37,427 bases of DNA from assembly GCA_017650045.1 (NCBI GenBank), contig JAGCFP010000018.1, positions 1 through 37,427 of the forward strand, read 5' to 3'. A program made the translations under genes and the position numbers. Source of the stretch: Bacteroidaceae bacterium. GTDB lineage: Bacteria; Bacteroidota; Bacteroidia; Bacteroidales; Bacteroidaceae. Shown here one piece after another: positions 1 through 28,466 of the stretch. The notes under the pieces are model-generated. The model had not been told where the DNA came from. It did not search any database and saw only the letters and a program-made list of their open reading frames with translations. Position 1 is the stretch's first letter. Each line of letters opens with the position of its first letter.

Positions 1-2
1 CT

Positions 3-650
3 ACGGTGCATGTGACACACGGCATCCCCATGGCCATCAATATAGGTGATGCACTGCTGGGTGAGGGCTATCGACTCCTCAGTCAGTGCACGCATGCTTC
101 GCTCTTGGCAGAAGTGGCTCAGGCGCATGTGAAACTGTGCCAGGGACAAGGACTGGAACTGGAGTGGAGTAATCGGCCACACGGGGTGACCTTAGAAGAG
201 GTGTTGGACATTTTCCGCAAGAAGACGGTGCCTGCCTTTGAGGTGTCGTTGCAACTGGGGTTGATCTGTGCAGGAGAAGATGTGCAGTTGCGCCAGATCT
301 TCCATGAGTTCAGCAGTGCCCTCGGGGTGGCTTATCAGTTGCAAGACGATGTGGAGGATTTTGAAGGAAATGATAAACTGGAACTGCGTCCGTCCTCCGT
401 ATTGGCGGTGCTGTGTGAGGACAATCCTGCTGTATTTATAGAGGCATTGCTGCACAGTGCAGACATCAAGGCTTTCTTGAATACTGTGGAGCATCGGCCA
501 AGGCTCGAGCGGGCATTGGAGCGTGTACGGGCGTTGGTAGAGGTTTATCACCAAGAGGCCATCGGGGCCTTGTATCCTCTGAAGAACGTGGAGCTGAAGC
601 GACTGCTCTTCAGAATTACGGAACGTATATTGGATACGAAGAAAGGATGA
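3..650 (+). CDS. trans-polyprenyl diphosphate synthase, C-terminal part (cut by left edge)
   Basis: Class I isoprenyl diphosphate synthase, the enzyme type that condenses isopentenyl diphosphate with an allylic diphosphate to make C15-C20 or longer chains. The open frame runs off the left edge, so the true start and the first DDxxD motif are missing. What remains (about 215 residues) contains the family's HGIPMAINIGDALL block at its start, the RKKT lysine region, and the second aspartate-rich motif DDVED about 115 residues in, preceded by QLQ. Chain length cannot be read from this part. The stop overlaps the start of the next gene (ATGA), and the next two genes are terpene-cyclase-barrel proteins, so the product very likely feeds them. 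It could also serve quinone or undecaprenol synthesis, but the tight coupling argues for the local pathway. Confidence 0.85.
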   Translation, partial: TVHVTHGIPMAINIGDALLGEGYRLLSQCTHASLLAEVAQAHVKLCQGQGLELEWSNRPHGVTLEEVLDIFRKKTVPAFEVSLQLGLICAGEDVQLRQIFHEFSSALGVAYQLQDDVEDFEGNDKLELRPSSVLAVLCEDNPAVFIEALLHSADIKAFLNTVEHRPRLERALERVRALVEVYHQEAIGALYPLKNVELKRLLFRITERILDTKKG

Positions 651-1516
651 CAGAGACCCTCTCCATAAGATTGCTACGCACCCTTACAAAAGGTAAGGCG
701 CTATTGAGTGCGGAAGCATCGGCACAGGTCGCCAATTTTGTGGAGACTCAGAAAGTGGAAGGAGAGGCGTCTTTTAAGAATAAAAGTGGGGCACCGGATT
801 TGTATTATACGGCTTTTGGCTGGCTCCTGTCCTATATCTTAGAACTGGAACTGGACGCAAAGCAACGGAAGGCATTTCTGGAGCGTTGGCAGGAGGAGCA
901 GTTGGGGCTGATTCATTATGCTGCCTTGATGCGTTGCCGCTTACTGGACGAACTGATGGAGAAGGGGAAGCTACGCATGGCTTTCACGGGGATTAAACCA
1001 CGGGAGGTGCGTGCGCTGACGTCTTTCCATGAAGTGCCCCAAGGAGATATACACAATCCTTACAGTCAGTTCATCTGGCGGGGATTGCTGGACGATACGG
1101 GCCATGCGGAGGAGCCGATGGACCTTTCGGGTCTGGAGGCTTACCGTGTGAAGGGGAAGGGCTATGCCAATGCCCCTGCACAAGCGATGGCCAATCTCAA
1201 TGCAACGACAGCGGCGCTCTCACTGTGGGGGCAGGCGATGGGTTGGAAGCAGCATGCCGAGGTGGAAGCCTTGAGGGACATGCAGGAAGACCATGGGGGG
1301 TTCAAAGCCTCGGAGGTGGTTCCGATGGCGGATTTACTATCTACGGCAACGGCTCTCTTCGTACTGCAACAGTACCGGGTGCATCCGCGTTTTAACGCTG
1401 CGGATTTCATCACTTCCCATTGGCTGGACAATGGAGGTTTTAGCGCTACACTGTTGGACGAGACGAGTGATGTGGAGTATGTGTTTTACGGATTATTGGC
1501 TCTTGGAACATTATGA
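647..1516 (+). CDS. prenyltransferase/squalene-cyclase repeat protein (half-size alpha/alpha barrel)
   Basis: A 289-residue soluble protein built from the repeats found in protein prenyltransferase beta subunits and squalene cyclases. Visible repeats are DLYYTAFG near residue 51, QEDHGGF near 213, and a C-terminal block near 262-287 with NGGFSATLL followed by DVEYVFYGLLALG, a typical prenyltransferase-repeat ending. It has no DXDD motif, so it is unlikely to be a stand-alone class II cyclase. It starts inside the stop of the polyprenyl synthase, and its own stop overlaps the start of the cyclase gene (1513), so the three are translationally coupled. Possible roles, all inference: a partner domain of the following cyclase, or a prenyl-binding or prenyl-transferring subunit. 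About half the length of a full squalene-hopene cyclase. Confidence 0.75.
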   Translation: MTETLSIRLLRTLTKGKALLSAEASAQVANFVETQKVEGEASFKNKSGAPDLYYTAFGWLLSYILELELDAKQRKAFLERWQEEQLGLIHYAALMRCRLLDELMEKGKLRMAFTGIKPREVRALTSFHEVPQGDIHNPYSQFIWRGLLDDTGHAEEPMDLSGLEAYRVKGKGYANAPAQAMANLNATTAALSLWGQAMGWKQHAEVEALRDMQEDHGGFKASEVVPMADLLSTATALFVLQQYRVHPRFNAADFITSHWLDNGGFSATLLDETSDVEYVFYGLLALGTL

Positions 1517-3252
1517 ATATAAGGCAGATAGACGAAATGGTTAAAGTAACTACCGAAGCACTGCTGAGCAAGCGTGAGGCGGGTAGGATATGGCGGGGGA
1601 AGCTTTCTTCCAGTGCCATATCAACGTCTGTTTCGGTGTTTGCCTTACATGAGATAGATGCGCAGAAGTACGAGCGTCAGATCGCTGAGGGGATAGCCTG
1701 GCTACAGCAAACCATGAAAGCCGATGGCTCTTGGGGTGACAGCATCGAGAGTCCGTCGAACCTGACGGCCACGTTGCTGACCTACGCTTCGCTCTTTGCC
1801 GTAGGGGTAAGGTCGGAAAAGACCCAAGCTTACTTGAAGGAAAGGTTTGGTGGAGCGACTGATGAAGACATCATACAAGGAGTGCTGGATTACTATGGGT
1901 CCGATCTCACCTTCTCTGTGCCTATCCTCGTAATGTGTGCCTTGGCAGGTGTGATCTCTGATTGGGAACGTATTCCGCCCTTTCCTTTTGAACTGGCGGT
2001 GCTGCCACAGCGTCTGTTCCGTTTCTTGAATTTGCCTGTAGTGAGTTATGCCATTCCGGCTTTAATCGCGGTGGGCATCTTGCGCTTCAAGAAAGGTAAG
2101 CAAGGCTTATTGGCACCTCTGCGCAAGCGGTTCATCGAGCCTTCACTGAAAGTCTTGGTGAAACTTCAGCCAGCCGATGGCGGTTTCCTGGAAGCGGCTC
2201 CGCTGACGGCTTTCGTAAGTATGTGCATGGCACAAGCGGGGTATCGGACACACGTGGTGACCCAGAAGGCGGCTCAGTTCTTGGTGGAAACGGTGCGTGA
2301 AGATGGCGCTTGGACCATTGATACCGATTTGTCGGGGTGGGTGACGAGCCTCAGTATTCGGGCACTGGACGAAGACTTGCCAGAACGGGCGTTCTTTATA
2401 GAAAATATGAAAGCACGCTCCACGAAAGAAAAACATCCGTTTACGGGCGCACAACCCGGTGGATGGGGATGGAGCGATTTGAGTGGCTCTGTGCCTGATG
2501 GCGATGACACGTCGGGCGCTTTGGTAGCGTTGCATGTATTGACGCATGGGACCTATTCCCCGGAAGTAGGCAAAGGCATCGAATGGCTGCTGGACTTGCA
2601 GAACAACGACGGAGGGATGCCCACCTTCTGCAAAGGGTGGGGAAAGTTGCCTTTCGACCGTAGCAGTGCCGACATCTCTGCGCATGCTTTTCTGGCTTTC
2701 TCGCTGTGGAAAGAGGTACTGCCTCCAGCACTGAAGGCACGGACGGAGAGAGGGGCTTTACGCCTATTGGCATGGATGGATGCGGCACTGTCGGCAGAGG
2801 GTTCATGGACACCCCTCTGGTTTGGAGATCAGGATGCTGCAGATGAGAAATCACCCGTCTATGGCACGGCCACGGCCGTGGATTATCTGTTGGCAGCAGG
2901 TGATCCCAAAGCGTTAGCCTTGGCCACCAAAGGCTTGGCGTATCTGCAGCGTGTACAGAATGCAGATGGTGGTTGGGGAGGTGCTGCTGGCGTGACATCG
3001 AAGGTGACGCTGACGGCTAAGGTACTGGGAGCGATGGCTGCTTCGGACAACCCTGATGAAGCGGTAATGGAAAGGGCGCTTGATTTCCTCTATGAGGCGT
3101 ACAAGCGTGGAGCGCTTTTCAGCAGAGAACCCATCGGACTCTACTTCTCCCGTCTGTGGTATTCGGAAGAGTTGTACAGTCTTACGTTTGTGCTGACAGC
3201 CTTGAAAAAAGTTAGGAAATATTTAATAACAACAAATCATACTGAACAATGA
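1513..3252 (+). CDS. squalene-hopene-cyclase-family terpene cyclase (class II, DXDD)
   Basis: A 579-residue protein with the double alpha/alpha-barrel layout of squalene-hopene cyclases, which are usually about 630 residues. The catalytic acid motif DXDD is present as DGDD at residues 329-332, in the context VPDGDDTSGALVAL. QW-like repeats appear as KADGSWG near 69, QPADGGF near 219, QNNDGGM near 363, EGSWTPLWFGD near 429 and QNADGGWGG near 482. The C-terminus (IGLYFSRLWYSEELY, near 541-555) resembles the end of bacterial cyclases of this family. The expected reaction is protonation-initiated cyclization of a polyprenyl substrate; no oxygen is needed. No squalene synthase is visible, so the substrate may be a prenyl diphosphate or a product of genes left of the window. 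Coupled by ATGA to both neighbours. Confidence 0.85.
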   Translation: MNIRQIDEMVKVTTEALLSKREAGRIWRGKLSSSAISTSVSVFALHEIDAQKYERQIAEGIAWLQQTMKADGSWGDSIESPSNLTATLLTYASLFAVGVRSEKTQAYLKERFGGATDEDIIQGVLDYYGSDLTFSVPILVMCALAGVISDWERIPPFPFELAVLPQRLFRFLNLPVVSYAIPALIAVGILRFKKGKQGLLAPLRKRFIEPSLKVLVKLQPADGGFLEAAPLTAFVSMCMAQAGYRTHVVTQKAAQFLVETVREDGAWTIDTDLSGWVTSLSIRALDEDLPERAFFIENMKARSTKEKHPFTGAQPGGWGWSDLSGSVPDGDDTSGALVALHVLTHGTYSPEVGKGIEWLLDLQNNDGGMPTFCKGWGKLPFDRSSADISAHAFLAFSLWKEVLPPALKARTERGALRLLAWMDAALSAEGSWTPLWFGDQDAADEKSPVYGTATAVDYLLAAGDPKALALATKGLAYLQRVQNADGGWGGAAGVTSKVTLTAKVLGAMAASDNPDEAVMERALDFLYEAYKRGALFSREPIGLYFSRLWYSEELYSLTFVLTALKKVRKYLITTNHTEQ

Positions 3253-4457
3253 AAAAGACATTATCACTTTTGGCGGTAGTTGCATTGGCTTTAAGCCTGA
3301 ATGCACAAGAGATCATTGAATGGCGTGGTGTAGGGCGTACAGGACTCTACCAAGACTCTGGTTTACTTAAGGCATGGCCTCAAGGAGGTCCACAGTTGCT
3401 CTGGAGTATCGATGGCATAGGTGAAGGTTATTCACAGTTGGGCATTGCCAATGACAGGATTTACGTGACAGGCATGAAAGGCGATAACCACATGGGCTAC
3501 ATGTCTGAGATAGATCTGAATGGCAAACTACTGCAGCAGAAAGGCTATTCGGAAGAGTGGGTGGGCAACTATAGTGGTGCCCGTGGCTCTGTGACCATCA
3601 GCGATGGTAAGATGTATCACTTAACCGGTTTGGGCATGTTGGTTTGCGTGGATCAGAAGACTTTGAATGTGGTGTGGAAGAAAGACATCTTGAAGGAGTT
3701 TGATGCCAAGATGCTGCAGTTTGCACAGAATGAGGCCCCACTGGTGGTGGACGACAAGGTATTTATCACCCCTGGTGGCAGTCGTAACAACATCGTGGCA
3801 CTGAATAAGAATACGGGTGATGTGGTTTGGGTGTCTCAAGCCAAGGGCGAGGAATCTGCCTATGCCAGTCCGATTTATATCAGTGATGTGGAAGTGCCAC
3901 AAATCATCGACATGACACAGAACAGCCTTTTGGCCCTCAATCCAAAGGACGGCACGCTGCTCTGGTCATATCCTTTCGCCAGTCGTTACAACCAGCAGTG
4001 CAACTCGCCTATCTATGAGAATGGCATGTTGCTTTTCATGAATGGTAATTCAGGCACGATGATGCTGAAGCTGGAGAATGGCGGTCGTAGTGTGAGCAAG
4101 GTTTGGGAATCTACGGAGCTGGCCAATGTCTTCTCTGCCATGGTGAAAGTGGGCAACTACATTTATGGTTGCAATGAGAACAATAGATATTGGGTGTGCT
4201 TGGACTGGAATACGGGTAAGTTGATGTATAAGACCCGTCTGCGCCAGTGTGTACCCATCACGGCAGATAACATGATTTACAACTATTGTGACAATGGTGA
4301 TGTGCAGCTCATCGCTCCCGACAGTTCGGAACTGAAGGTGGTGAGCAGTTTCAAGGTGACTCAAGGAACGGAGCAGCACTGGGCACATCCTGTGATCTAT
4401 AAAGGGGTGCTCTATATCCGTCATGGAGATAGTTTGATGGCTTATAAAATAAAATGA
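3249..4457 (+). CDS. exported PQQ-like beta-propeller protein (propeller 1)
   Basis: A 402-residue protein with a clean N-terminal signal peptide (hydrophobic core followed by LNAQ, cleavage near residue 19), so it acts outside the cytoplasm. The mature part has repeated blades with the pattern hydrophobic-W-x-T/D-G typical of PQQ-like/BamB-like propellers. It shares its opening (WRGVGRTGLYQDSGLLKAWP, then LLW) and its ending (HWAHPVIYKGVLYIRHGD) with the two tandem propellers at 20224 and 21526, so the three are paralogs. No haem motif CxxCH and no recognisable quinoprotein active site could be found, so a scaffold, ligand-binding or redox-partner role is as likely as catalysis. Coupled by ATGA overlap to both the cyclase and the next gene. 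Confidence 0.8.
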   Translation: MKKTLSLLAVVALALSLNAQEIIEWRGVGRTGLYQDSGLLKAWPQGGPQLLWSIDGIGEGYSQLGIANDRIYVTGMKGDNHMGYMSEIDLNGKLLQQKGYSEEWVGNYSGARGSVTISDGKMYHLTGLGMLVCVDQKTLNVVWKKDILKEFDAKMLQFAQNEAPLVVDDKVFITPGGSRNNIVALNKNTGDVVWVSQAKGEESAYASPIYISDVEVPQIIDMTQNSLLALNPKDGTLLWSYPFASRYNQQCNSPIYENGMLLFMNGNSGTMMLKLENGGRSVSKVWESTELANVFSAMVKVGNYIYGCNENNRYWVCLDWNTGKLMYKTRLRQCVPITADNMIYNYCDNGDVQLIAPDSSELKVVSSFKVTQGTEQHWAHPVIYKGVLYIRHGDSLMAYKIK

Positions 4458-5875
4458 ACAAAGGAAGTTTAAAGTGGATTACTATTGGTACGGTTGTACT
4501 CTACTCCCTGGTGTTAGTAGGATGGCAACTGTATACCCCGCATGCTGAACTGACGACTCAGGAGCCGGGTGCCGATAACCGTCCGGCTGAGTTGGCACGT
4601 AGTGCCGATGATGTGAAGGTGGGCGAGTTCTTCATGAAATATGAGGCCGCAGCACCTACGGGCATGAATGGGGTATGGGCCGCTTTCCGTGGAGCCAATC
4701 GGGATAATATCATCCAGACCTCAGAGGCGATCAGCACTGCTGGTGATTATCAGGAGATGTGGAGCTTCACCACGGGTGAGGGCCATGCAGCGCCTGTGAT
4801 CTATAAGGGGAGGGTCTATGTACTGGACTATGATGAGACCTTGCTCTCCGACATGCTACGTTGCTTCTCTCTGGACACGGGAGAGGAGCTGTGGCGTAGG
4901 TGGTACAGGGTGCGTATCAAACGTAATCATGGATTCTCGCGTACCATTCCGGTGGTGGGTGAGGGCTATATCATTACGATAGGGCCCAACGGCCATGTGA
5001 TGTGCTGTGACCCCATCAGTGGGGATATGAAATGGACGCGCGATCTGCAGAAGGAGTATGAAACAGAAGTGCCTTTTTGGTACACCGGCCAATGTCCGCT
5101 GGTTGAGGATGATGAAGTGATCTTAGCTCCCGCAGGGACGGATACCTTGATGGTGGGCATGGATATACAGACAGGAGAAGTGAAATGGGCAACGGAGAAT
5201 ACGGTCAATTTCAAGATGTCGCATTCTTCCATCATGCCTATGACCTTAAATGGAAAGAAGACCTATGTGTATATCGGCATCGGCGGCGTGTGTGGTGTAT
5301 CGGCGGAGGGTGCTGATAAGGGAAAGTTGCTGTGGAATACCAACAAGTGGCAACCTTCGGTGGTGGCGCCGTCACCTCTGAGAGTGTCTTCCAACCAGAT
5401 ATTCCTGGTGGCTGGCTATGGCAATGGCGGCGCTTTGCTTCAGGTAGAGGGCAGTGGTACAAATTGGAAAGCCACAGTCCTTGATCAGTATAAGGCCGAC
5501 AAGGGATTGGCCAGTGAGCAGCAGACACCTATCTTTTATAATGGAAAGATCATCAGCATCTTGCCTAAGGATGGTGGTGCCAATCGCAGTAAACTGGTGT
5601 ATTACAATCCTTCGGATCTCCATGCGCCAATCTGGACTTCGGCACAGGATGAGCGCTTCGGCTTAGGGCCCTACCTGGTGATCAACGATAAGCTGTTTGC
5701 CTTCAATGAAGATGGGGTGTTGTATGTGTATCAGATAGCCTCTAATGGCATGACGTTGCTGAAGAAACAAGAAGTGATGGAAGGGGTAGATGCCTGGGGA
5801 CCGATGGCTTATGCCGACGGGCGACTGGTGCTGCGTGATTCACACACGGTGAAATGTCTGAAGATTACAGAATGA
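4454..5875 (+). CDS. membrane-anchored PQQ-like beta-propeller protein (propeller 2)
   Basis: A 473-residue protein with one N-terminal hydrophobic segment (about residues 8-26) without a clear cleavage site, so it is probably tethered to the inner membrane with the propeller in the periplasm. After a linker it opens with AAFRGANRDN, the same entry motif as the other propellers here. Blades with LDTGEELW, PISGDMKW and IQTGEVKW turns follow, along with the shared block WYTGQCPLV. Cysteines include a CC pair in the HVMCCDP segment, but there is no CxxCH. Function is not known for this subfamily. Its position between propeller 1 and the Tat-type redox proteins suggests a structural or electron-transfer role in the same envelope complex. 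Confidence 0.78.
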   Translation: MNKGSLKWITIGTVVLYSLVLVGWQLYTPHAELTTQEPGADNRPAELARSADDVKVGEFFMKYEAAAPTGMNGVWAAFRGANRDNIIQTSEAISTAGDYQEMWSFTTGEGHAAPVIYKGRVYVLDYDETLLSDMLRCFSLDTGEELWRRWYRVRIKRNHGFSRTIPVVGEGYIITIGPNGHVMCCDPISGDMKWTRDLQKEYETEVPFWYTGQCPLVEDDEVILAPAGTDTLMVGMDIQTGEVKWATENTVNFKMSHSSIMPMTLNGKKTYVYIGIGGVCGVSAEGADKGKLLWNTNKWQPSVVAPSPLRVSSNQIFLVAGYGNGGALLQVEGSGTNWKATVLDQYKADKGLASEQQTPIFYNGKIISILPKDGGANRSKLVYYNPSDLHAPIWTSAQDERFGLGPYLVINDKLFAFNEDGVLYVYQIASNGMTLLKKQEVMEGVDAWGPMAYADGRLVLRDSHTVKCLKITE

Positions 5876-5893
5876 AATAAATAACAAAGCTAT

Positions 5894-6949
5894 ATGGAAC
5901 AACCGAAAAATAAGGATGGGAAAATGACTCGTAAAGGATTCTTGCGGGTATTGGGTTCTATTGGTGTTGGTGGCGTCATAGCTGGTGGAGCAGGAGATTT
6001 GGTTTACAAGATGTTTGCCAAGCCCAAAGAGTTGTTCTACCAGACCAATGAAAAGGTGGGAGAGAGCCCTCAGCGCAGTACGCTCCTGTCTCCTTATAAA
6101 AAAGTGGCATCGTTCAAGACTGCAGAAGACATCGAGTCGTTCGAACTGTATCAGGACTATATTGTAGTGGCTTCTGCAAAGCAGGTGTACATCTATGGCG
6201 CTGATGGTAAACTGCAGCAACAATTCCCCACGTATGGCGAGGTGATGGATGTGACGGTGAGTGACGATTTGATCTATGTGCTCTATCCGATGCATGTGGA
6301 TGTCTTCAATATGCAAGGTACAAAAGTGCGTGAATGGGAGGCGTGTGACGAGAATGCCGATTATTGCTCATTGACGGTTTTTGGCGAGAATGTGTTCATT
6401 ACAGATGCCCAAAACAAACTGATGTGCAAGTATCTGACAGACGGTACATTCGTGAAATTCATTCAGAGTCCTAATGGCTTTGTGGTACCGAGCTATTCTT
6501 TCGGTGTGATGCACATGAACGGTACGGTGTATTGCTCGAATCCTGGGAGGCACTTGGTGGAAAGCTATACGGCAGATGGCGAGTATCTGTCAGCGTTTGG
6601 AGAAGCCGGAATCAACGACGGACGATTCAGCGGTTGCTGTAACCCCGTGTATGTAACCTCTAATGCCGGTGGAGAGATCATCACCTCTGAAAAAGGTATT
6701 CCACGTATCAGCTGCTATAGTCCAGAAGGCGAGTTTCGCAGTGTGCTGCTGGATGAACGGACCTTGGGTGGCGGCCATGCCGCTTATGAGGTGAGGGTCA
6801 ATCGCGACAAGCTCATTGTGGCTGGTAAGAATCAGATCATCACCTTCCAGTACGACAAGTCCTTGGTAGCTCAAAATGGAACGGCGCTTTCAGGGAAGTG
6901 TGCCACGTGTGCGAAGGATTGTCCGTTAAAGGTAGGTGTAACGATATAA
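5894..6949 (+). CDS. Tat-like exported NHL/6-bladed propeller with C-terminal Cys motif
   Basis: A 351-residue protein that starts with a Tat-like signal: MTRKGFLRVLG and a Gly/Ala-rich hydrophobic stretch, with RK in place of the canonical RR. The body has NHL-type blades (YIYGADGKL, VDVFNMQG, ESYTADGEYL, CYSPEGEF), so it is a different propeller class from its PQQ-like neighbours. The last residues carry CATCAKDCP, with cysteines at 336, 339 and 343, a CxxCxxxCP pattern like one half of a ferredoxin site. A CC pair sits in the FSGCCNP segment near 252-253 and could give further ligands. A folded, cofactor-loaded export substrate would fit Tat use. The next gene encodes a Tat-type ferredoxin. 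Whether a cluster is really bound is inference. Confidence 0.72.
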   Translation: MEQPKNKDGKMTRKGFLRVLGSIGVGGVIAGGAGDLVYKMFAKPKELFYQTNEKVGESPQRSTLLSPYKKVASFKTAEDIESFELYQDYIVVASAKQVYIYGADGKLQQQFPTYGEVMDVTVSDDLIYVLYPMHVDVFNMQGTKVREWEACDENADYCSLTVFGENVFITDAQNKLMCKYLTDGTFVKFIQSPNGFVVPSYSFGVMHMNGTVYCSNPGRHLVESYTADGEYLSAFGEAGINDGRFSGCCNPVYVTSNAGGEIITSEKGIPRISCYSPEGEFRSVLLDERTLGGGHAAYEVRVNRDKLIVAGKNQIITFQYDKSLVAQNGTALSGKCATCAKDCPLKVGVTI

Positions 6950-6958
6950 GCGTAAGTT

Positions 6959-7540
6959 ATGGAAGACAAAGAGAAATTAGTAGAAGGCAGTCCGCTGAAA
7001 AGACGTGATTTCTTCAAGAAGATAGGCACTGTATTGGCAGGTGGATCCATCGCTGCCGTGGGCATAGCTGGCGCCAGTAAGGTGAAAGGCAAGGAAGCCA
7101 GTCTTTTCTGGCAGATAGATCCGAATGTGTGTACGCAGTGCGGAAGATGTGAAACCGACTGTGTGATGCCGGTGTCGGCAGTGCGTTGCATTCATGCCGT
7201 GAAGGTTTGCGGGTATTGCGACCTCTGTGGCGGTTACTACCGCACCAATGCGAAGGAGCTGAACACAGCGGCTGAAAATATGATATGCCCCACAGGTGCC
7301 ATCAAGCGCAAGTTTGTGGAAGATCCTTACTTCGAATATACCATTGATGAGGATCTGTGTAACGGTTGCGGCAAGTGTGTGAAGGGATGCAATTCCTTTG
7401 GCAATGGGTCCTTATATCTTCAGATCAACCAAGACCTCTGTCTGAACTGCAATGAATGTAAAATCTCAAAAGTCTGTGCTTCAGGAGCTATACAGCGTGT
7501 CCCTTATGGTACGGCTTATAAACTAAAGGATCACGCATGA
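6959..7540 (+). CDS. Tat-exported polyferredoxin (4Fe-4S)
   Basis: A 193-residue protein with a classic twin-arginine signal, KRRDFFKKIG, followed by a Gly/Ala-rich hydrophobic stretch, so it should be exported folded with its clusters in place. The mature part has 17 cysteines, enough for four [4Fe-4S] clusters. Groups are CTQCGRCETDC, then a C/CGYCDLC region with MICPTGAI, then CNGCGKCVKGC, then CLNCNECKISKVC. This resembles the periplasmic or exofacial ferredoxin subunits of respiratory enzymes. The stop overlaps the start of the membrane polyferredoxin gene (ATGA), a strong hint that the two proteins exchange electrons. No catalytic molybdopterin or haem partner is encoded nearby, so its acceptor is not known. 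Confidence 0.88.
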   Translation: MEDKEKLVEGSPLKRRDFFKKIGTVLAGGSIAAVGIAGASKVKGKEASLFWQIDPNVCTQCGRCETDCVMPVSAVRCIHAVKVCGYCDLCGGYYRTNAKELNTAAENMICPTGAIKRKFVEDPYFEYTIDEDLCNGCGKCVKGCNSFGNGSLYLQINQDLCLNCNECKISKVCASGAIQRVPYGTAYKLKDHA

Positions 7541-10601: not shown

Positions 10602-10602
10602 T

Positions 10603-12990: not shown

Positions 12991-12992
12991 AC

Positions 12993-13958: not shown

Positions 13959-13962
13959 GAAG

Positions 13963-15108: not shown

Positions 15109-15124
15109 TTAACTATACGTTATT

Positions 15125-15805
15125 ATGGCACTGCTTGAACTCAAAAATATCAGTAAGTCTTTTAAAGACGGAAATGCACGGATGAATCATGTGCTTCGCC
15201 AACTTTGCTTCGAAGTGGAGCAAGGGGATTTCGTTGCCGTCAGAGGACAGTCGGGCGCTGGAAAAACCACATTGTTGAATGTGTTAGGCACTTTGCTCTT
15301 ACCAGATTCTGGAACCTATGTATTGGAAGGTCAGTCGCTCTTGGAGGACAATGTAGATTTAGCCTCTGTGCGCAATAAGAAAATAGGTTTTGTCTTCCAA
15401 GACCACCGCTTGTTGCCACAATACAATGTGTTACAAAATATTCTGCTGCCATTGATGGCTGCAGCCAATGAAGTTTCTGAAGAACAAATTAAGTGGGCCA
15501 GACAGTTGATGGAGCTGACCAATATCGCCCCACTGGAAAACCAGTTTCCACTGACTTTGTCGGGAGGCGAGGCTTGTCGTGTGGCTGTCTGTAGGGCTTT
15601 GATCAATAAACCAGTTGTACTCTTAGCCGATGAGCCTACGGGCCAATTAGATAAAGATAATGCCCAGCACATAGCCTCCTTGTTCCAACTGGTGAATAAA
15701 GAGTTGCAAACCACGATTGTCATGGTGACACATTCCGATCAAACGGCAAATGCTGCCAAAAGAATCGTCACATTGATAGATGGCGTTTTAGTGAAAGAAA
15801 AGTAG
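15125..15805 (+). CDS. ABC transporter ATP-binding protein (LolD/MacB-type)
   Basis: A 226-residue ATPase with Walker A GQSGAGKTT (41-49), Q-loop VFQDHRLLPQ near 90, signature LSGGEACRVAVCRAL (145-159), Walker B VVLLADEPTG (164-173) and the H-loop VTHSD near 201. Size and sequence fit the LolD/MacB/FtsE branch that works with FtsX-fold permeases, and such a permease follows 15 bases downstream. In this branch the signature is normally followed by QQR or similar; here it reads ACR, a small oddity that does not touch the core LSGGE. LolD-type systems extract lipoproteins from the inner membrane or drive periplasmic mechanotransmission. The cargo here is unknown; two propeller lipoproteins of the cluster or a terpenoid product are candidates (inference). 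Confidence 0.88.
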   Translation: MALLELKNISKSFKDGNARMNHVLRQLCFEVEQGDFVAVRGQSGAGKTTLLNVLGTLLLPDSGTYVLEGQSLLEDNVDLASVRNKKIGFVFQDHRLLPQYNVLQNILLPLMAAANEVSEEQIKWARQLMELTNIAPLENQFPLTLSGGEACRVAVCRALINKPVVLLADEPTGQLDKDNAQHIASLFQLVNKELQTTIVMVTHSDQTANAAKRIVTLIDGVLVKEK

Positions 15806-15820
15806 GAAAAGATATATTCA

Positions 15821-18800
15821 ATGCGAAGTGTATTTGGCATAGGGAAAAATGATTCAGTGCGGTTTTACAAGCGTTATTACCGTCTGATTTCATTGGCTGT
15901 ACTCATTACGGTGGCAGTCATCGTGGGCAGTTTGCTCATAGGTCATTCCGTACGCCAAACTTTGATTCACAGAGTGACAGAACGTCTGGGGAATGTGGAG
16001 TCTGTCATCTTTTCCAGAAACTCTTTCTTGTCGGATAGCATCATGCAGGAACCCCTCTTTAAAGAAGGCGCTAAGGGCGTCTTGCTTTCCGATGGTTTTA
16101 TTTCACGCAATGGACGGCTGCTTCCTGTGATGGTATGGGGCATGGAAGGAGACGACATGTATGGACGTGCATTGCTTAATCAGACTTTGGCAGATGAACT
16201 TCGGCTTTCTCCTGCAGAAGATATTGTGCTTCGTTTACCAAAGGGTGGTTTAGTGCCCTCAGGTTCTCTTTTTGTCACAGACAACTATACCGCCAGTTTG
16301 CGATTGGCACAGGCGGGCATCAAATCCGTTGAAGAAGGTGGCAACCTTAGTCTTAAGAACGAACAGACACTGCCTCTGAATATCTTTGTCAGTCGTGATG
16401 AATTGGCTGAGATTATGGAGGTAGAAGGAAAGATCAATCTGATACTTTCTGAAAAGACCATTTCTGAATCTGATTTCTCTACGGTCTGGAATCCTGCCTA
16501 CTCAGGACTTCAAATACACCCGATGAGTGAATACACCGAAATCATCACCGATCGTGTTTTCCTGCAATCTTCGGTGGTAGATTACATCGAACGTGAAAAC
16601 AGTCGTGTCAATCCGCTCTTCACTTACCTTGCTAACGGCATTCGATTAGGAGATACCTTGGTGCCATATTCTTTCGTTACTGCGATTAACGCGTTTGACG
16701 GCCATACGCTCCAATCAGATGAGCTGATTCTTTCGGATTATACCGCGCAGCGTCTGCATGCTTCAGTGGGCGACAGAGTTACGGTAAGTTATTATGTGTC
16801 TAAGGGTTTGAAAGACCTTAAGACAGATTCTGTCACGCTACGTGTTGGTAGCATCGTTCCACTAAGTCTGTTGGTCGAAGATGGCAGATTAAGTGCCGAG
16901 TTCCCAGGGTTGTCGGATGTGGAGCGTTGTACGGATTGGGACAGTGACCTCCCATTGGATATGACTCTGATTACTGATGAGGATGAAGAATATTGGAATC
17001 ACTATCGGAGCACTCCTAAAGCCTTGTTGCCTTATAGCTTGATGAAAGACATTTGGAGCAATGATTATGGTACGGCTACAGCATTGCGAGTTTCAGACCA
17101 TCCAGCGAAAGTCGAAGGCTTGCAACTTTCGATGTTCGATGTGCAAATCGTCCAACCACGTGAGAGTGGATTGTATGCAGCTAAAAACGGAATAGACTTT
17201 GCCAGCCTGTTCCTTGCATTAGGTTTTTTCATCATCATTTCTGCCTTGCTCTTATTCGTCAGTCCCCTCAGCGAAATGTTGTGGCAGCGTAGGGGAGAGG
17301 TACAACTTTTCAAGGCCTTGGGATATACAGACAAGCGCATCATAAAGAATCTATGGAACGAAGCATTGCCTGTTGTGTGTGTGGCCACTATAATGGGTGT
17401 GATTGTTGGCATTCTGTACACCTCCATCGTTATGTGGTTATTGGGCAATATCTGGCAAGGAGCCACCCAAACATCGCACTTAGGTATTTATATTGATGGA
17501 GTTTCTGTCATTGTGGGCGTAGTTATCAGCATCGTCGTCATAGTGGGATTACTCTGGTATCAGATAGCGAAAGCCGTTCGGACAGATGGACGGTCTGAAC
17601 AAATAGAGCATCATCGTGGAATACGAATCTGGGTATCTGCTTTGGGCTTCACGGTTCTATCGATCGTCGTCTTCATTGTGAATATCCTTATCGTAAACTC
17701 ACTCTATCTCTTCGTACTGTTAGGCATTTTGTTGGTTGTCCTTGCAGGACTGTGGGGAGAATATTACATTACCCGTAAAAGCAAGCCAGAAACTAATGCT
17801 TTTACGCTTGAGAAACAAACGTTTGCTACGCTTTTCTACCAAATGAAACAACTGAGAGGTGCGTATTATGCCCTGGCCTTTGGTGTCTTTACTATTTTTG
17901 CTGTAGGATTGAATCGGCAACAGGTGACAGATGCTCAGAAGCCAACCAATGCCACGGGTGGGTATTCATTGTGGGCAGAAACCACGGTACCTGTCTATTA
18001 TGATCTGAACACTGCCGAAGGACGTCATCAACTGTCGCTTGATGCACTACCATCTGGAATCTCTATTATGCAAACCCTTCGGTTAGGTGCTGATGATGCC
18101 AGTTGTCTCAACCTCAACAAAGTCACACAACCAACCATTTTAGGAGTGGATATGGAGCAACTGCAGCACAGTACTTTTGAGATACTCCAAGGAGATATGG
18201 CCTTCACTGATTATTCAAAAACCAATGGAGATGCCTATCCGGTACTTGTAGATCAAGAATCCTTGATGTGGAGCTTAGGCATGACGGTTGGCGATACCTT
18301 GCATTATCAGAAAGCGAATGGCCAGCCTGTGAACTTCATTATCGCAGGAGCATTGGCAACGGGTATCTTCCAGGGCTATGCGCTGATGGACAAGCAGCTA
18401 TTTAAAGAAGTGTGGCCAGAGATTTCCGGATCGGAGGTTATGCTTATCAAAACCGAACAATCTCAGGAAGTAAGCACTTTGCTCTCGCAAGCGCTCAACG
18501 AATATGGCATACGTGTGATGACTACGGCTCAGCGATTGAATACTTTCAATGAGCTGGTCAATACCTATTTGAGCATCTTCCTTTCGTTAGGAGGCATTGG
18601 CATCTTGCTTGGCATCTTGAGCTTCATCATCGTTATCCGTAAGAATCTATTGGTTCGCCAGTCGGATATCCGATTATACAAAAGCATTGGATATGCCCCC
18701 AAGCGTATAGAAGGATTGCTGTTCCGTGAGAATGTCTTGCTGCCACTTTATGCCGTTTGTAGCGGTACTGTAGCAGCTCTGTTGAGTACATGCAATAACT

Positions 18801-18934
18801 TTAGCCATAATGACTGGATGACGTGGTTGCAGAGTTTGGCTTTCATGGTGTTGTTTATCGGACTTATTTGGTGGTTCGTCAAACGTAATTGTCACCATGC
18901 TGTTGTGGAATCCTCCACCCAAAATGTAGAATGA
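15821..18934 (+). CDS. large FtsX/MacB-fold ABC permease
   Basis: A 1037-residue permease. Hydrophobic segments lie near 21-41, 462-482, 518-540, 560-582, 603-625, 630-650, 682-700, 919-940, 972-990 and 1005-1023, giving about ten. Two extracytoplasmic domains, each over 200 residues, fall between segments 1-2 and 7-8. The motifs GEVQLFKALGYTDKRI and SDIRLYKSIGYAPKRI, located after the second and eighth segments, are the repeated coupling-helix regions of a duplicated FtsX domain. It is longer than LolC/LolE or MacB because both halves are fused and the periplasmic parts are large. It pairs with the ATPase just upstream. The substrate cannot be read from the sequence. Only 1 base separates it from the glycosyltransferase gene. 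Confidence 0.85.
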   Translation: MRSVFGIGKNDSVRFYKRYYRLISLAVLITVAVIVGSLLIGHSVRQTLIHRVTERLGNVESVIFSRNSFLSDSIMQEPLFKEGAKGVLLSDGFISRNGRLLPVMVWGMEGDDMYGRALLNQTLADELRLSPAEDIVLRLPKGGLVPSGSLFVTDNYTASLRLAQAGIKSVEEGGNLSLKNEQTLPLNIFVSRDELAEIMEVEGKINLILSEKTISESDFSTVWNPAYSGLQIHPMSEYTEIITDRVFLQSSVVDYIERENSRVNPLFTYLANGIRLGDTLVPYSFVTAINAFDGHTLQSDELILSDYTAQRLHASVGDRVTVSYYVSKGLKDLKTDSVTLRVGSIVPLSLLVEDGRLSAEFPGLSDVERCTDWDSDLPLDMTLITDEDEEYWNHYRSTPKALLPYSLMKDIWSNDYGTATALRVSDHPAKVEGLQLSMFDVQIVQPRESGLYAAKNGIDFASLFLALGFFIIISALLLFVSPLSEMLWQRRGEVQLFKALGYTDKRIIKNLWNEALPVVCVATIMGVIVGILYTSIVMWLLGNIWQGATQTSHLGIYIDGVSVIVGVVISIVVIVGLLWYQIAKAVRTDGRSEQIEHHRGIRIWVSALGFTVLSIVVFIVNILIVNSLYLFVLLGILLVVLAGLWGEYYITRKSKPETNAFTLEKQTFATLFYQMKQLRGAYYALAFGVFTIFAVGLNRQQVTDAQKPTNATGGYSLWAETTVPVYYDLNTAEGRHQLSLDALPSGISIMQTLRLGADDASCLNLNKVTQPTILGVDMEQLQHSTFEILQGDMAFTDYSKTNGDAYPVLVDQESLMWSLGMTVGDTLHYQKANGQPVNFIIAGALATGIFQGYALMDKQLFKEVWPEISGSEVMLIKTEQSQEVSTLLSQALNEYGIRVMTTAQRLNTFNELVNTYLSIFLSLGGIGILLGILSFIIVIRKNLLVRQSDIRLYKSIGYAPKRIEGLLFRENVLLPLYAVCSGTVAALLSTCNNFSHNDWMTWLQSLAFMVLFIGLIWWFVKRNCHHAVVESSTQNVE

Positions 18935-18935
18935 C

Positions 18936-20207
18936 ATGAAGATAGTGTTCATCATAACGAGTTCAGGGGATGCCTATTACTGTGGCAACTGCTTCCGTGA
19001 CAACCTCATGGCACAAGCCATGAAGCGTGCTGGTCATCAGGTAGTTATCATGCCCATTTATCTGCCACTGAGACAGAAGGAGTTTCAGGCAGATACGCGA
19101 CTGTTTTTCCCTGCCACCTCGTATTATGTAGGACAGAAGTTCTTCAAAGATAAGTCGATGCCTGCATGGCTGAAGAAACTTCTCGGAGCACAGCCTTTGC
19201 TTGATATAGCAATGTCTATGGCTGGCACCACTACCAGTGATGGCATGGAAGATATGACACTCTCTATGATCCAAGGAGAGGGCACTACGTTCGATGACAT
19301 GGTGCGTGAGATGATCGATTGGATTGTGACGAAGGAGCAACCAGATGTCATCTATATCTCATCGTCTATGCTGGTGGGCATTGCCAAGGCATTGAAACAG
19401 GCATTTGAGAAGCTGCAGATGGAACAGCCCCCAAAGATTGTTTGTGTGGCACAGGATGAGGAAGTATGGATAGATGGCCTTCGTGAGGAAGATGCGGCAT
19501 TGGCATGGCGTGGTATAGCAGAGAATTTGAAGTATGCTGATGCAGTTATTACCACCAGTCTGCATTATAAAGAAAAGATGGCCAGTCTGTTTAATGCCGA
19601 TCATGTGGTATATCCAGGATTGGAGATTGCTAAGTATGCTACTACTGAACATCCTGCTGAGCCTACCATTGGCTTTTTCTATCGTATGAATAAGGCGGAT
19701 GGTCTGGATGTGTTGGCAGAAGCCTTTGTGATGTTGAAGCAGAAGGGGTCTATCCCTGGTCTGAAATTACGTATAGGAGGAGGATATACTTCAGACGACA
19801 AGCCTTTCCTTCGAAGGGTGCACAAGCTGTTGGCTCCTTATAAAGAAGACGTGGTGATAGAAGATACCTATGACTGGGCCCATCATGCAGAGTTCTATAA
19901 AAAGATATCGGTCATCTGCGTACCTTTGCAGTTTGAAGAAAGTGTGGGCTTGTATCTGTTAGAGGCTTTTGCTGCTGGCATACCTGCGGTGGAGCCAGAT
20001 ATGGGATCGTTCAGTGAGATCGTTGGTAATGCCGGAGTGTTATATCATCCTAACGATGCCAAGCACTTAGCTGAAGCTTTAGAGCAACTGTTCACTACGC
20101 CCGGGCTGTACGAACAAAGTTGTAAGGCAGCTACTGCACTATCCGAAGAGAGGTACAACAGCAGGGTAGTGGCTGAGAAACTGGAAGAAATAATGAAAAC
20201 AATATAA
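18936..20207 (+). CDS. glycosyltransferase, GT-B fold, GT4 family
   Basis: A 423-residue GT-B enzyme without signal or membrane segments, so it acts in the cytoplasm. The N-terminal acceptor domain starts with KIVFIITSSGDAYYCGNCF, a Cys-containing variant of the usual Gly-rich loop. The C-terminal nucleotide-sugar domain has GFFYRMNKADGLDVLAEAF and the GT4 EX7E motif (E335 to E343, EESVGLYLLEAFAAGIP). The expected reaction is retaining transfer of a sugar from a nucleotide donor; donor and acceptor are unknown. The gene sits 1 base after the ABC permease and 16 bases before a propeller gene, so it belongs to the same transcription unit. A terpenoid or lipid acceptor would fit the context, but that is inference. 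Confidence 0.85.
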   Translation: MKIVFIITSSGDAYYCGNCFRDNLMAQAMKRAGHQVVIMPIYLPLRQKEFQADTRLFFPATSYYVGQKFFKDKSMPAWLKKLLGAQPLLDIAMSMAGTTTSDGMEDMTLSMIQGEGTTFDDMVREMIDWIVTKEQPDVIYISSSMLVGIAKALKQAFEKLQMEQPPKIVCVAQDEEVWIDGLREEDAALAWRGIAENLKYADAVITTSLHYKEKMASLFNADHVVYPGLEIAKYATTEHPAEPTIGFFYRMNKADGLDVLAEAFVMLKQKGSIPGLKLRIGGGYTSDDKPFLRRVHKLLAPYKEDVVIEDTYDWAHHAEFYKKISVICVPLQFEESVGLYLLEAFAAGIPAVEPDMGSFSEIVGNAGVLYHPNDAKHLAEALEQLFTTPGLYEQSCKAATALSEERYNSRVVAEKLEEIMKTI

Positions 20208-20223
20208 ATAATAAATTGATTTT

Positions 20224-21492
20224 ATGCTTATGAGAAAAACTAAACGAATGATTGGCTTGGGCGCTATGGCCCTTTGCCTGAGTGTACTGAGCGCTTCAGC
20301 GCAAGACATGACAACCTTCCGTGGCCCTGCACGCGACGGACAGTATGCTGAGACCGGACTGCTGAAGCAGTGGCCTGCAGATGGTCCTGAGATGCTTTGG
20401 GAAACCAACGATGTGGGTAAGGGTTATTCCACCCCTGTGATAGTGGGCGATAGGCTCTACGTCACTGGTATGAACGAGAATGAGAATCAAGAGACTTTCA
20501 ATGCTTATACACTTGATGGTAAGAAGGTTTATACCATAGCTTATGGTAAGCCTTGGAGAGAAAACTATCCTGAAACGCGCACCACACCTACCATCGTTGA
20601 TGGTAAGGCCTATATGGTAAGTGGCAGTGGTGAGGTGGTTTGCATCAACATTGCCGATGGCAAGATTGTGTGGCGCATCGACGGACTGAGCACATACGGT
20701 GGACGTACGGGCCACTGGGGCACCGCAGAATGTCCGCTGGTGTATGACAATAAGGTGATTTACACCTCTGGAGGCAGTCAGACTTCAATGGTGGCACTCG
20801 ACAAGGAGACAGGTAAGGAAATCTGGAAGACTAAGTCGTTGCGTGCCAACAGTGCTTACATTTCTCCGATCTTGGTGACATGGAATGGCAAGCGCCAAAT
20901 CATTGGTGGCATCGAGCAGGTAATGTTTGGTGTGAATCCTGACAATGGCGACATTGAGTGGACCTTCACCGACTGGCCAAGTCCTAACACTTATGAGAAC
21001 ATTGCTCCTAACTCTCCACTGTTTAAGGACGGCTCTTTCTTCTTTAGTGAGGGTTATGACACGGGTGGTTACTTGATTAAGCTCAATGATACCATGACTG
21101 CTGCTACAAAGGTTTGGAAGACCGACGATCTGGACACTCATCATGGAGGTTATGTGCTCATCGACGGTGTGATCTATGGTTCCAACTGGGTGAACAACAA
21201 TGCTGGCAACTGGGTGGCTATTGATTGGAATACAGGTAAGACGCTCTACAATACCGGATGGAGTGGTGGTAAGGGCAAGGGCTCTACCGTAGCTGCAGAT
21301 GGTATGCTCTACACGCACGATGAGCGTCGTGGCTTTGTGGGCTTGGTACGTCCTTCCAAGGATAAATACGACGTGGTGAGCGAGTTCCGTGTAAGCAAGG
21401 GCTCTGGTCCCAGCTGGGCACATCTCGTCATCAACAGAGGCGTATTGTATGTGCGTCATGGCGAGTATATGGCTGCCTACAAAGTGAAGTAA
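20224..21492 (+). CDS. exported PQQ-like beta-propeller protein (propeller 5)
   Basis: A 422-residue protein with a cleavable signal peptide ending in SASAQ near residue 26. The mature part starts with MTTFRGPARDGQYAETGLLK, the clearest form of the FRGPxRDG entry motif. It ends with SWAHLVINRGVLYVRHGEY. Long stretches match the next gene at both protein and DNA level, for example SNWVNNNAGNWVAIDWNTGK, which indicates a tandem duplication. An alternative ATG six bases downstream (20230) would only remove two residues. No haem site or metal-binding cluster is visible. It follows the glycosyltransferase by 16 bases with no visible promoter, so it is probably in the same operon. Confidence 0.82.
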   Translation: MLMRKTKRMIGLGAMALCLSVLSASAQDMTTFRGPARDGQYAETGLLKQWPADGPEMLWETNDVGKGYSTPVIVGDRLYVTGMNENENQETFNAYTLDGKKVYTIAYGKPWRENYPETRTTPTIVDGKAYMVSGSGEVVCINIADGKIVWRIDGLSTYGGRTGHWGTAECPLVYDNKVIYTSGGSQTSMVALDKETGKEIWKTKSLRANSAYISPILVTWNGKRQIIGGIEQVMFGVNPDNGDIEWTFTDWPSPNTYENIAPNSPLFKDGSFFFSEGYDTGGYLIKLNDTMTAATKVWKTDDLDTHHGGYVLIDGVIYGSNWVNNNAGNWVAIDWNTGKTLYNTGWSGGKGKGSTVAADGMLYTHDERRGFVGLVRPSKDKYDVVSEFRVSKGSGPSWAHLVINRGVLYVRHGEYMAAYKVK

Positions 21493-21525
21493 TAAGTGCT
21501 ATTTATAATTCATCATTTGTAAGTT

Positions 21526-22872
21526 ATGATTAAGACAAAAGCTCTTTTCTTAGGACTTGCGACTGCAAGCATGGTACTGGTTGGCTGTGGCAATAAGCAG
21601 AAAGCAGATACGACTGAGAGTGCCAGTGCTGCGGCTCCAGCTCCCGCTCCAGCTGTTGATATAACGTTCTCACCAGCTCAGGATGTAACCCAGTTCCGTG
21701 GTCCTAATCGTGATGGTATCTATAGTGCTGAAAGCGGATTGCTGAAGCAGTGGCCAGCCAATGGCCCTCAGCTGTTGTGGGAAAATTCAGACTTGGTGCA
21801 AGGCTATTCCAGTCCTGCAGTACTGAGTGGAACCGTGTATATCACTGGAATGAATGAGGATAAGAACCAAGAGGTGTTCTTCGCTATCGACCGTAATGGT
21901 AAGACACTTTACAAGACGCCTTATGGCAAGCCTTGGAAAGACACCTATCCAGAGACACGTTCCACACCTACCATCGTTGATGGCAAGGCTTATGTCATCA
22001 GTGGCATGGGTGAGGTGGCGTGCATCAACATTGCTGATGGCAGCATCGTGTGGCAGATAGATGGTGGTACCAAGTATGGCACTACGACAGGCAACTGGGG
22101 TACGGCAGAGTGTCCTTTGGTGGTTGACAACAAGGTGATCTACAGTCCTGGTGGTAAGCAGACCACCATCGTGGCGCTGGACAAGGAGACAGGTGCAGAG
22201 ATTTGGAAATCACGCTCACTGGGTGAGAATCGTAACTATGTGCAGCCCATGCTCATCACTTGGAACGGTAAGCGCCAGATTGTAGGTGGTACCAACAACA
22301 CCTATTATGGGGTAGATCCTGAGACGGGTGAGATTCAGTGGAGTGCCACAGGATGGTATCCACCTTCAGGGAGGGAGAACATCGCTCCTAATGGTGCCGT
22401 TTTCAAGGATGGTATTCTGGTGTTCTCACAGGGCTATGGCATTAACACCACCGCCTTTAAGTTGGCTGATAATATGAAGAGTGTCAGCGTGGCATGGAAG
22501 AACGACGACCTCAGTACCCATCATGGTGGCTATGTGCTGGTAGATGGCGTGCTCTATGGTTCCAACTGGGTGAATAATAATTCCGGCAACTGGATAGCTG
22601 TGGATTGGAATACTGGTAAGACCCTCTACAACGAAGCTTGGAGTGGTGGTAAGGGCAAGGGATCAACGGTCTATGCCGATGGTATGCTCTACACTTACGA
22701 TGAGCGTCGTGGTTTCGTGGGCTTAGTACGTCCAACGAAAGATAAGTTCGATGTAGTGAGCGAATTCCGTATCACCAAAGGCTCTGGTCCTAATTGGGCA
22801 CACATCGTCATCAGTAATGGTATCATGTATGTGCGCCATGGAGAATATCTGGCAGCCTATTTAGTGAAATAA
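21526..22872 (+). CDS. PQQ-like beta-propeller lipoprotein (propeller 6)
   Basis: A 448-residue lipoprotein paralog of the preceding gene. The signal ends in the lipobox LVGC, then comes a low-complexity linker rich in Ala and Pro (about 32-44), then TQFRGPNRDGIYSAESGLL and the same blade order as propeller 5. It ends WAHIVISNGIMYVRHGEY. The duplication has therefore produced one soluble and one lipid-anchored version of the same propeller. The linker would give the propeller reach from the membrane. It is the last gene of the long array; a strong hairpin starts 25 bases after its stop. Confidence 0.83.
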   Translation: MIKTKALFLGLATASMVLVGCGNKQKADTTESASAAAPAPAPAVDITFSPAQDVTQFRGPNRDGIYSAESGLLKQWPANGPQLLWENSDLVQGYSSPAVLSGTVYITGMNEDKNQEVFFAIDRNGKTLYKTPYGKPWKDTYPETRSTPTIVDGKAYVISGMGEVACINIADGSIVWQIDGGTKYGTTTGNWGTAECPLVVDNKVIYSPGGKQTTIVALDKETGAEIWKSRSLGENRNYVQPMLITWNGKRQIVGGTNNTYYGVDPETGEIQWSATGWYPPSGRENIAPNGAVFKDGILVFSQGYGINTTAFKLADNMKSVSVAWKNDDLSTHHGGYVLVDGVLYGSNWVNNNSGNWIAVDWNTGKTLYNEAWSGGKGKGSTVYADGMLYTYDERRGFVGLVRPTKDKFDVVSEFRITKGSGPNWAHIVISNGIMYVRHGEYLAAYLVK

Positions 22873-22896: not shown

Positions 22897-22936
22897 TTTG
22901 CCCAGTTAGGAAAGTTTTACTCCCTAACTGGGCAAA
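22897..22936 (+). terminator. perfect 14-bp hairpin closing the propeller/redox array
   Basis: Bases 22897-22910 (TTTGCCCAGTTAGG) and 22923-22936 form a perfect 14-bp inverted repeat with a 12-base loop. It begins 25 bases after the stop of propeller 6. It lacks a long T-run on the 3' side, so it may act as a terminator or RNA-stabilizing hairpin. It ends 4 bases before the arsR-type promoter, so an operator role for that gene is also possible. Confidence 0.65.
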
Positions 22937-22939: not shown

Positions 22940-22971
22940 TTTGCCATTGTGTGGGCTTTTCACTACCTTTG
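22940..22971 (+). promoter_or_regulatory. Bacteroidetes-type promoter of the ArsR-family gene
   Basis: TTTG at 22940-22943 and TACCTTTG at 22964-22971, separated by 20 bases, match the Bacteroidetes sigma consensus (-33 TTTG, -7 TAnnTTTG). Transcription would start a few bases downstream, about 12 bases before ATG 22990. This also rules out the in-frame GTG at 22951 as the start. Confidence 0.7.
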
Positions 22972-23466: not shown

Positions 23467-23493
23467 TATCAGTAAAACTGTAACTATAAATAT

Positions 23494-28463: not shown

Positions 28464-28466
28464 AAT

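Follow-up and report, generated by a model that had tools for sequence, protein, structure and literature searches.

Which process could unite a long run of genes for terpenoid enzymes, iron-sulfur (Fe-S) proteins, β-propellers and an ABC transporter is the question raised by a 37,427-nucleotide stretch of DNA from a Bacteroidaceae bacterium (assembly GCA_017650045.1, contig JAGCFP010000018.1; here called the window). A preliminary description had proposed that the genes filling positions 3-22872 form one undescribed envelope system. Comparison with relatives indicates that about twelve of these genes, i.e. those for propellers, an exported ferredoxin, a NapH/NosR-type membrane polyferredoxin (NosR08), a Bfu-type flavoprotein, a GT4 glycosyltransferase and an ABC ATPase with its FtsX permease, are a core that is kept in near-constant order across the Bacteroidales. 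We give an even chance to the reading that this core is an envelope electron-export machine with the propellers on the periplasmic side, to which one large clade adds a cyclic-terpenoid cassette.

A core module with near-constant gene order

NosR08 is present in 72 of 393 Bacteroidales genomes (the order sample; matches at E<=1e-40, some of them fragments) and in one of 395 genomes sampled across the phylum, that one being the source genome itself. In a first sample, relatives of at least 39% identity occur in 8 genomes (G028, G034, G059, G050, G052, G043, G046 and G058) out of 60 besides the source genome, and a scan of genome contigs returned at least 543 relatives. The titles of the best 80, which were examined, all point to Bacteroidales or near groups with one exception, a contig labelled Eubacteriales (L046), on which the array is typical and which is possibly mis-binned. 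Record titles give omasum, rumen, faeces and sediment as sources of the carriers. No NosR08 relative was found on viral contigs, and plasmids yielded only distant matches to the radical S-adenosylmethionine (SAM) protein, the squalene-hopene cyclase and NosR domains, all below 60% identity; around the Methanosphaera radical SAM gene, the sole plasmid-match neighbourhood viewed, the other annotated genes include none of this set. The presence of TatC, tried as a correlate, proved uninformative, as 58 of 61 relatives have it.

Among the loci of the 72 genomes 40 were fetched, six more were seen separately, one is that of the source genome and 25 were left out. The recurrent order is prop04 (in variable number), prop05, prop06, Fdx07, NosR08, propTM09, BfuBC, BfuA, prop12, GT4, ABC ATPase and FtsX permease. 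Counting, among the 40 loci, only those that have both members of a pair, adjacency is nearly complete for prop05-prop06 (28/29), prop06-Fdx07 (33/34), Fdx07-NosR08 (36/37), NosR08-propTM09 (34/36), BfuBC-BfuA (25/27) and BfuA-prop12 (23/24), and holds for propTM09-BfuBC in 26/31. Downstream of prop12 (24 loci) GT4-ABC-FtsX follows in 11 and ABC-FtsX directly in two (L159, L183), the remaining 11 stopping earlier within the fetched stretch. As GT4 lies 3' of the FtsX gene in the window and 5' of the ABC gene in relatives, its position varies. No further gene family is shared by three or more of the 46 clustered stretches, save one set of four antisense-looking frames. The core is split in L104 and L117, where its genes stand singly or in pairs, and is interrupted by other genes in L026. 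In two loci a metallo-beta-lactamase-fold protein with an apparent signal peptide is encoded between BfuB and BfuA (L041:14876-15799, L042:15526-16440).

Thus, judged by a gene order that recurs in other families of the order, the array is more than a chance grouping, which is what the preliminary description had asked of relatives. It had also considered that terpenoid, redox and ABC/glycosyltransferase blocks might be found apart. Such a division into three was rejected, as the redox, propeller and glycosyltransferase/ABC genes are one block in the order-sample loci; only the terpenoid cassette does come loose, in four genomes.

The array and its upstream extension

In the window the array consists of 17 open reading frames, all on the forward strand. 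Neighbours overlap by 4 bases at 7 of the 16 junctions, and gaps are at most 33 bases long. The one-strand, overlapping layout had been recognised correctly and the count, given as sixteen, falls one short; the listed gene content, including seven propellers of two classes (six PQQ_2/BamB-like and one NHL-like in domain scans), was borne out. The array closes, as described, at a perfect hairpin with a 14-bp stem (22897-22910/22923-22936) and a loop of 12. Internal promoters that might divide the array were sought: σ70-type matches in positions 1-20000 do not exceed those in shuffled sequence (23 seen, 28.1 expected), and a Bacteroides-type pattern has no match inside the array.

The array starts upstream of the window. 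The source genome is incomplete (2.27 Mb, 77% complete), the window being its contig C22, and the end of another of its contigs, C10, overlaps window positions 1-451 with 97% identity. Leading into the window, C10 encodes a histidine kinase and a LytTR regulator, followed by a 4Fe-4S protein, a radical SAM protein and finally the N-terminal portion of a DUF116-polyprenyl-synthase fusion. In a close relative (L038) a single contig bears the array together with the genes for the Fe-S protein, the radical SAM protein and the fusion. The kinase-regulator pair is found directly 5' of the core in L071 and L074, loci in which no cassette gene was found, and 5' of the cassette in G539, where NosR08 lies on another contig.

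A Bfu-type flavoprotein at the proposed cytoplasmic end

The proteins initially termed HydB-like and NuoG-like belong, by their domains, to the electron-bifurcating Bfu family, the former as BfuBC and the latter as BfuA. The flavoprotein, a fusion of NuoE and NuoF types, is thus better named as a BfuBC core than as a plain NADH dehydrogenase. In the 795-residue fusion a PF01257 NuoE-type domain, characteristic of BfuC, spans residues 21-164, and the flavin mononucleotide (FMN; Nuo51), SLBB, Nuo51-4Fe-4S and ferredoxin domains characteristic of BfuB are all present. These Pfam families we take to correspond to the InterPro entries that define BfuB. The best solved relative is NfnB (9n5u, E 5e-209), followed by other chains of the HydB/HoxF type. 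The cluster cysteines (Cys) are C90, 95, 132 and 136; C195, 225 and 229; C651, 654, 657 and 697; C726 and 731; and eight C-terminal ones; C657 is kept in 61 of 62 rows and the others in all rows with letters at that position (62-63 rows). They would account for the complete set of six Fe-S clusters, with a putative assignment of Cys to cluster.

According to Schut et al. (2022, PMC9304861, main text) the Bfu family is defined by the BfuB/BfuC domains together with an invariant cluster set, 17 of its clades are without a function, and an Nfn-associated BfuB is noted in Bacteroidetes, so a relative of the core may already be in that dataset. The window BfuA (323 residues) contains PF13510 and Fer4-type matches, some of them below cut-off, and thereby the expected 2Fe-2S and 4Fe-4S sites. 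In the PDB it best matches 9bov_A and NfnA, over residues 3-174 at most. A Pfam scan found no NADP-binding flavin adenine dinucleotide (FAD) domain in it, which sets it apart from the Nfn-Bfu class. A GltD-like FAD/NAD(P) domain is present in BfuA of the cassette-free relatives L030 (L030:3323-4924), which matches 9bov_A, 8oh5_C and NfnA, and L032.

A proposed path from the membrane to the exported propellers

NosR08 has two PF12801 stretches (1.5e-18) and 15 Cys that are invariant in 86-87 rows, as expected of a NapH/NosR-type protein, with partial matches to TIGR02163 and NosR below cut-off. It is not NosR proper, since no FMN-binding Pfam match was found in it and NF046105 scores 63.5 against 1000 bits. 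A NosZ-like system was likewise rejected, there being no NosZ or NosD Pfam match at E<=0.01 among the window proteins scanned. The adjoining Fdx07 keeps 16 Cys in 74/74 rows and C77 in 72/74. The path first suggested, from the NADH flavoprotein through the membrane polyferredoxin to exported Fe-S proteins and propellers, fits these conserved Cys and the predicted export signals.

Of the four propeller families measured, prop05 shows the strongest conservation, with 136 of 472 columns conserved to 95% or more in 70 rows, and is a candidate substrate- or cofactor-binding protein. Its profile finds a quinoprotein ethanol dehydrogenase as first, weak match in the PDB (9.7e-06). Prop06 bears a signal of the RR/RK type in most cassette-clade copies and is rich in Cys: 77-79 of 79 rows keep the GCC of its GCCNP motif, and all 61 rows with letters at that place show a CxxCxxxCPL tail. 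This tail is missing from the four aligned copies without a cassette and from some within the cassette clade, e.g. L064.

The same parts could carry electrons inward, with a propeller acting as exported dehydrogenase and Fdx07 and NosR08 feeding the Bfu core, which would reduce NAD+ and ferredoxin. In the abstract of PMC9304861 Bfu enzymes are described as reversible, part of PMC8238504 records NapH-like proteins also next to the alcohol oxidase ExaA, and the dehydrogenase match of prop05 points the same way. However, the four of seven propellers that were scanned fall far under the cut-off for pyrroloquinoline quinone (PQQ) dehydrogenases (TIGR03075 29.6 bits for prop05, 29.5, 49.8 and 61.9 against 480). 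Moreover, a Tat-type ferredoxin with a NapH/NosR-type protein is generally best known as a donor to reductases, and we regard inward flow as unlikely.

We think it very unlikely that the propellers are merely BamB/Lol-type scaffolds of envelope assembly, the redox chain serving to keep their Cys or clusters intact. BamB-type labels are indeed frequent among the propellers and the ATPase is nearest to LolD, but no BamA or BamD was found among the genes scanned, polar residues make up 67 of the 136 conserved columns of prop05, and a NAD(P)H-fed polyferredoxin chain would seem excessive for the upkeep of scaffolds. Since GT4 and the ABC genes belong to the core of cassette-free genomes as well, they are not present for the terpenoid only.

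An optional terpenoid cassette

The cassette consists of the Fe-S protein, the radical SAM protein, the DUF116/prenyl synthase, TCa02 and SHC03, in an order that is constant wherever all five share one stretch. The fusion (PF00348 and PF01976) is cut by the window start; its two Asp-rich motifs, with Asp positions conserved in a 41-row alignment, mark a trans-polyprenyl diphosphate synthase. The motif CNLxCxGC of the radical SAM protein is conserved among relatives. SHC03 matches squalene-hopene cyclase 1gsz (5.8e-20) by profile and its DxDD acid is conserved in relatives, as predicted for a class II terpene cyclase, and at E<=0.01 TCa02 finds only GGTase-II beta subunits in the PDB.

SHC03 is found in 16 of the 393 order-sample genomes and NosR08 in 14 of these 16, about three being expected by chance (Fisher p 1.4e-9, uncorrected for relatedness). 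Of the other two, G591 has a broken cyclase beside core propellers and no NosR08 match, and G593 (L250) has prop04-prop04-prop05-prop06, after which the core breaks off within a long contig, the cassette lying elsewhere. The radical SAM gene, searched in 69 genomes including 65 of the 72 with NosR08 (seven were left out), was found in 19, of which 15 are among the 65. Cassette genes and core genes are similar in their rank order of divergence across 29 loci (Spearman 0.60-0.86, without correction for the species tree).

These patterns bear on the view, unlikely in our judgement, that a redox operon of the envelope and a cluster for terpenoid biosynthesis are two unrelated neighbours. Separate existence is suggested by G693, G593, G623 and G528, where the 14-20 kb fetched on and around the cassette contain no core gene, and by the 58 of 72 NosR08 genomes without a cyclase match. 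On the other hand, in no genome of the order sample was the cassette seen without core genes, as the two that lack NosR08 retain core propellers; cassette and core are fused or side by side in the source clade, G059, G631, G564, G761, G683 and G591; and both may follow the same kinase-regulator pair. The contig of G755 does not extend far enough to judge the linkage, and in G052 cyclase and radical SAM genes lie on different contigs. By these comparisons the cassette is optional and at times unlinked, yet tied to the core; the proposal of a single system thus holds for the core and not for the terpenoid genes as a constant part of it.

Genes beyond the hairpin

Beyond the hairpin lies an ArsR-aquaglyceroporin-CobW unit (22990-25390; Table 1). 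CobW occurs in 5 of 61 relatives, namely G000, G028, G034 and G059, which have cassette and core, and G006, which has neither a NosR08 nor a prop05 match; conversely, G052 has cassette and core without CobW. It is thus present in four of the five relatives known to have both (p 5e-5). In the 69 genomes CobW accompanies radical SAM in 9 of 19 and is found in 1 of 50 without it (G487 by a fragment), and 27 of 41 named core genomes searched contain it. Stretches of up to 19 kb from these 27 genomes also contain core or cassette genes in 18 cases, only the kinase-regulator pair in two and neither in seven. By co-occurrence, the unit goes with the form of the system that has the cassette, and in several genomes it adjoins the kinase-regulator pair. 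An ArsC-like protein of the low-molecular-weight phosphatase family, with an apparent signal peptide, adjoins CobW in seven loci (L213:8221-8781, L222:7395-7931, L218, L223, L225, L229 and L234); none was seen in the window. The protein of L213 scores 112.9 against 174.3 bits for arsenate reductase (TIGR02691). Further 3' of CobW, positions 25424-29547 encode GH32, an MFS transporter and a PfkB kinase, an ordinary set for fructan or sucrose use.

These neighbours raise the idea that the redox core and the vicinal-Cys propeller act on arsenic, antimony or similar metalloids, with ArsR, the aquaglyceroporin and the ArsC-like protein as partners. The frequency of CobW in relatives with cassette and core, its shared stretches with cluster genes and the ArsC-like neighbour would fit. 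Nevertheless, its rarity without radical SAM and its absence from G052 indicate that the core does not need CobW, the ArsC-like match is below cut-off and ArsR-type regulators can sense other signals, making metalloid handling a quite improbable explanation.

Table 1. Features of the window, with coordinates on the forward strand and basis of assignment
Feature	Coordinates	Strand	Basis
DUF116-polyprenyl-synthase fusion, C-terminal part with second Asp-rich motif	3..650	+	PF00348 2.7e-22; N-terminal part on C10
TCa02, small alpha-toroid protein, no DxDD seen	647..1516	+	PF00432 below cut-off
SHC03, class II terpene cyclase-like, PDxDDT acid motif	1513..3252	+	PF13243, PF13249
prop04-family PQQ_2-type propeller, signal peptide	3249..4457	+	domain scan; signal read by eye
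prop05, N-terminally anchored propeller	4454..5875	+	alignment; anchor read by eye
prop06, NHL-like propeller, Tat-type (RK) signal, GCCNP, CxxCxxxCPL tail	5894..6949	+	domain scan, alignment; signal by eye
Fdx07, NapG-like polyferredoxin, Tat-type signal	6959..7540	+	Fer4 matches; signal read by eye
NosR08, NapH/NosR-type membrane polyferredoxin	7537..8793	+	PF12801 twice
propTM09, membrane-anchored BamB/PQQ-like propeller	8790..10601	+	domain scans
BfuC-BfuB fusion (NuoE-like, 2Fe-2S, NuoF, two 4Fe-4S)	10603..12990	+	PF01257, PF01512, PF10531, PF10589, Fer4
BfuA-like Fe-S protein without GltD-type FAD/NAD(P) domain	12987..13958	+	domain scans, PDB profile search
prop12, BamB-like propeller, lipoprotein-type signal	13963..15108	+	domain scans; start and signal by eye
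LolD-like ABC ATPase	15125..15805	+	PF00005; TIGR02211 best match, below cut-off
FtsX/MacB-type permease	15821..18934	+	PF02687
GT4 glycosyltransferase	18936..20207	+	PF13692, PF00534; in relatives' core, 5' of ABC gene
prop04-family PQQ_2-type propeller, signal peptide	20224..21492	+	domain scan; signal read by eye
prop04-family PQQ_2-type propeller, lipoprotein-type signal	21526..22872	+	domain scan; signal read by eye
Hairpin, perfect 14-bp stem	22897..22936	+	read from sequence
Bacteroides-type promoter match, sole one in window, 5' of ArsR	22940..22971	+	0.54 expected by chance
ArsR/SmtB-type regulator	22990..23349	+	NF033788 above cut-off; start read by eye
GlpF-like aquaglyceroporin	23494..24285	+	PF00230, TIGR00861; linked in relatives
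CobW GTPase	24305..25390	+	PF02492

Discussion

Gene content, order, conserved motifs and co-occurrence are observed directly, and from them we propose how the core may work, i.e. whether its proteins form a complex, which way electrons run, what the substrate is and how the terpenoid is used. The Bfu-type flavoprotein would be fed by NAD(P)H, perhaps with ferredoxin as a second donor, and pass the electrons to NosR08 in the membrane and on to the Tat-exported Fdx07. There a substrate or cofactor held by the exported propellers, most likely by prop05 and the Cys-rich prop06, may be reduced. The LolD/FtsX transporter and GT4 would serve the envelope side, in lipoprotein placement or glycoconjugate export, and in one large clade the cassette joined to the core might supply a cyclic terpenoid for the core to use or modify.

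Several points weigh against electron export with a terpenoid branch. As no recognised terminal oxidoreductase is encoded, the role of the propellers is assigned by elimination; as the window BfuA lacks the FAD domain that its nearest characterised counterparts have, its partner is uncertain; the cassette is dispensable, as judged from the many NosR08 genomes without a cyclase match; and both co-occurrence and the correlated divergence may partly reflect species history. More tentatively still, and with considerable doubt on our part, the core could be a new Bfu class with a transmembrane NapGH-type chain as its third partner, bifurcation or confurcation thereby driving low-potential redox chemistry outside the cytoplasmic membrane, the catalyst there being an "empty quinoprotein", a propeller without PQQ, with the cyclic terpenoid as cofactor or substrate in one clade.

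If electron export is correct, the analysis names a redox system that is widespread in the Bacteroidales and connects NAD(P)H in the cytoplasm with the envelope in a way for which we found no published description. It would provide a setting for two questions, the role of exported PQQ-like propellers without PQQ and the third substrate of unassigned Bfu clades, and testing seems practical in carriers with strain titles, e.g. Parabacteroides distasonis An897 (L050) and Plebeiobacterium (L048, L059). The preliminary description knew of no system with this set; in agreement, none of the open-licence papers listed in searches with capped lists describes it in its title or abstract opening, which is weak evidence of absence. 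The sections of PMC9304861 consulted name no such class either, and a term search of its main text for NapH, NosR, propeller, PQQ and periplasm gave no mention.

Among known systems, SHC03 shares the DxDD acid motif and the N- and C-terminal SHC domains with squalene-hopene and other class II terpene cyclases, but it reaches only 67.9 of the 431 bits of the curated squalene-hopene cyclase cut-off and has a second, small toroid protein and the DUF116-prenyl synthase as its partners. With Lol and MacB transporters the array has a LolD-like ATPase and an FtsX permease in common; unlike in Lol, the ATPase remains below the LolD cut-off (193.9 against 307.75 bits) and lies inside a redox operon. 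The NapGH/NosR-type polyferredoxins, as part of PMC8238504 describes them, show the same doubled PF12801, paired Cys motifs and adjoining NapG-like ferredoxin with a Tat signal, whereas here the proteins scanned from the window and C10 gave no FMN-binding or ApbE match, genes for a nitrate, N2O or halide reductase are absent, and the likely donor is the Bfu flavoprotein. The closest likeness in the flavoprotein is to the Nfn-Bfu class (StnABC/NfnABC; PMC9304861, main text), with the same BfuB/BfuC domains, conserved cluster Cys and a related BfuA. The present array departs from that class in that BfuC and BfuB are fused, the window BfuA is without the FAD domain, and the operon is shared with a NapH/NosR-type membrane protein and propellers.

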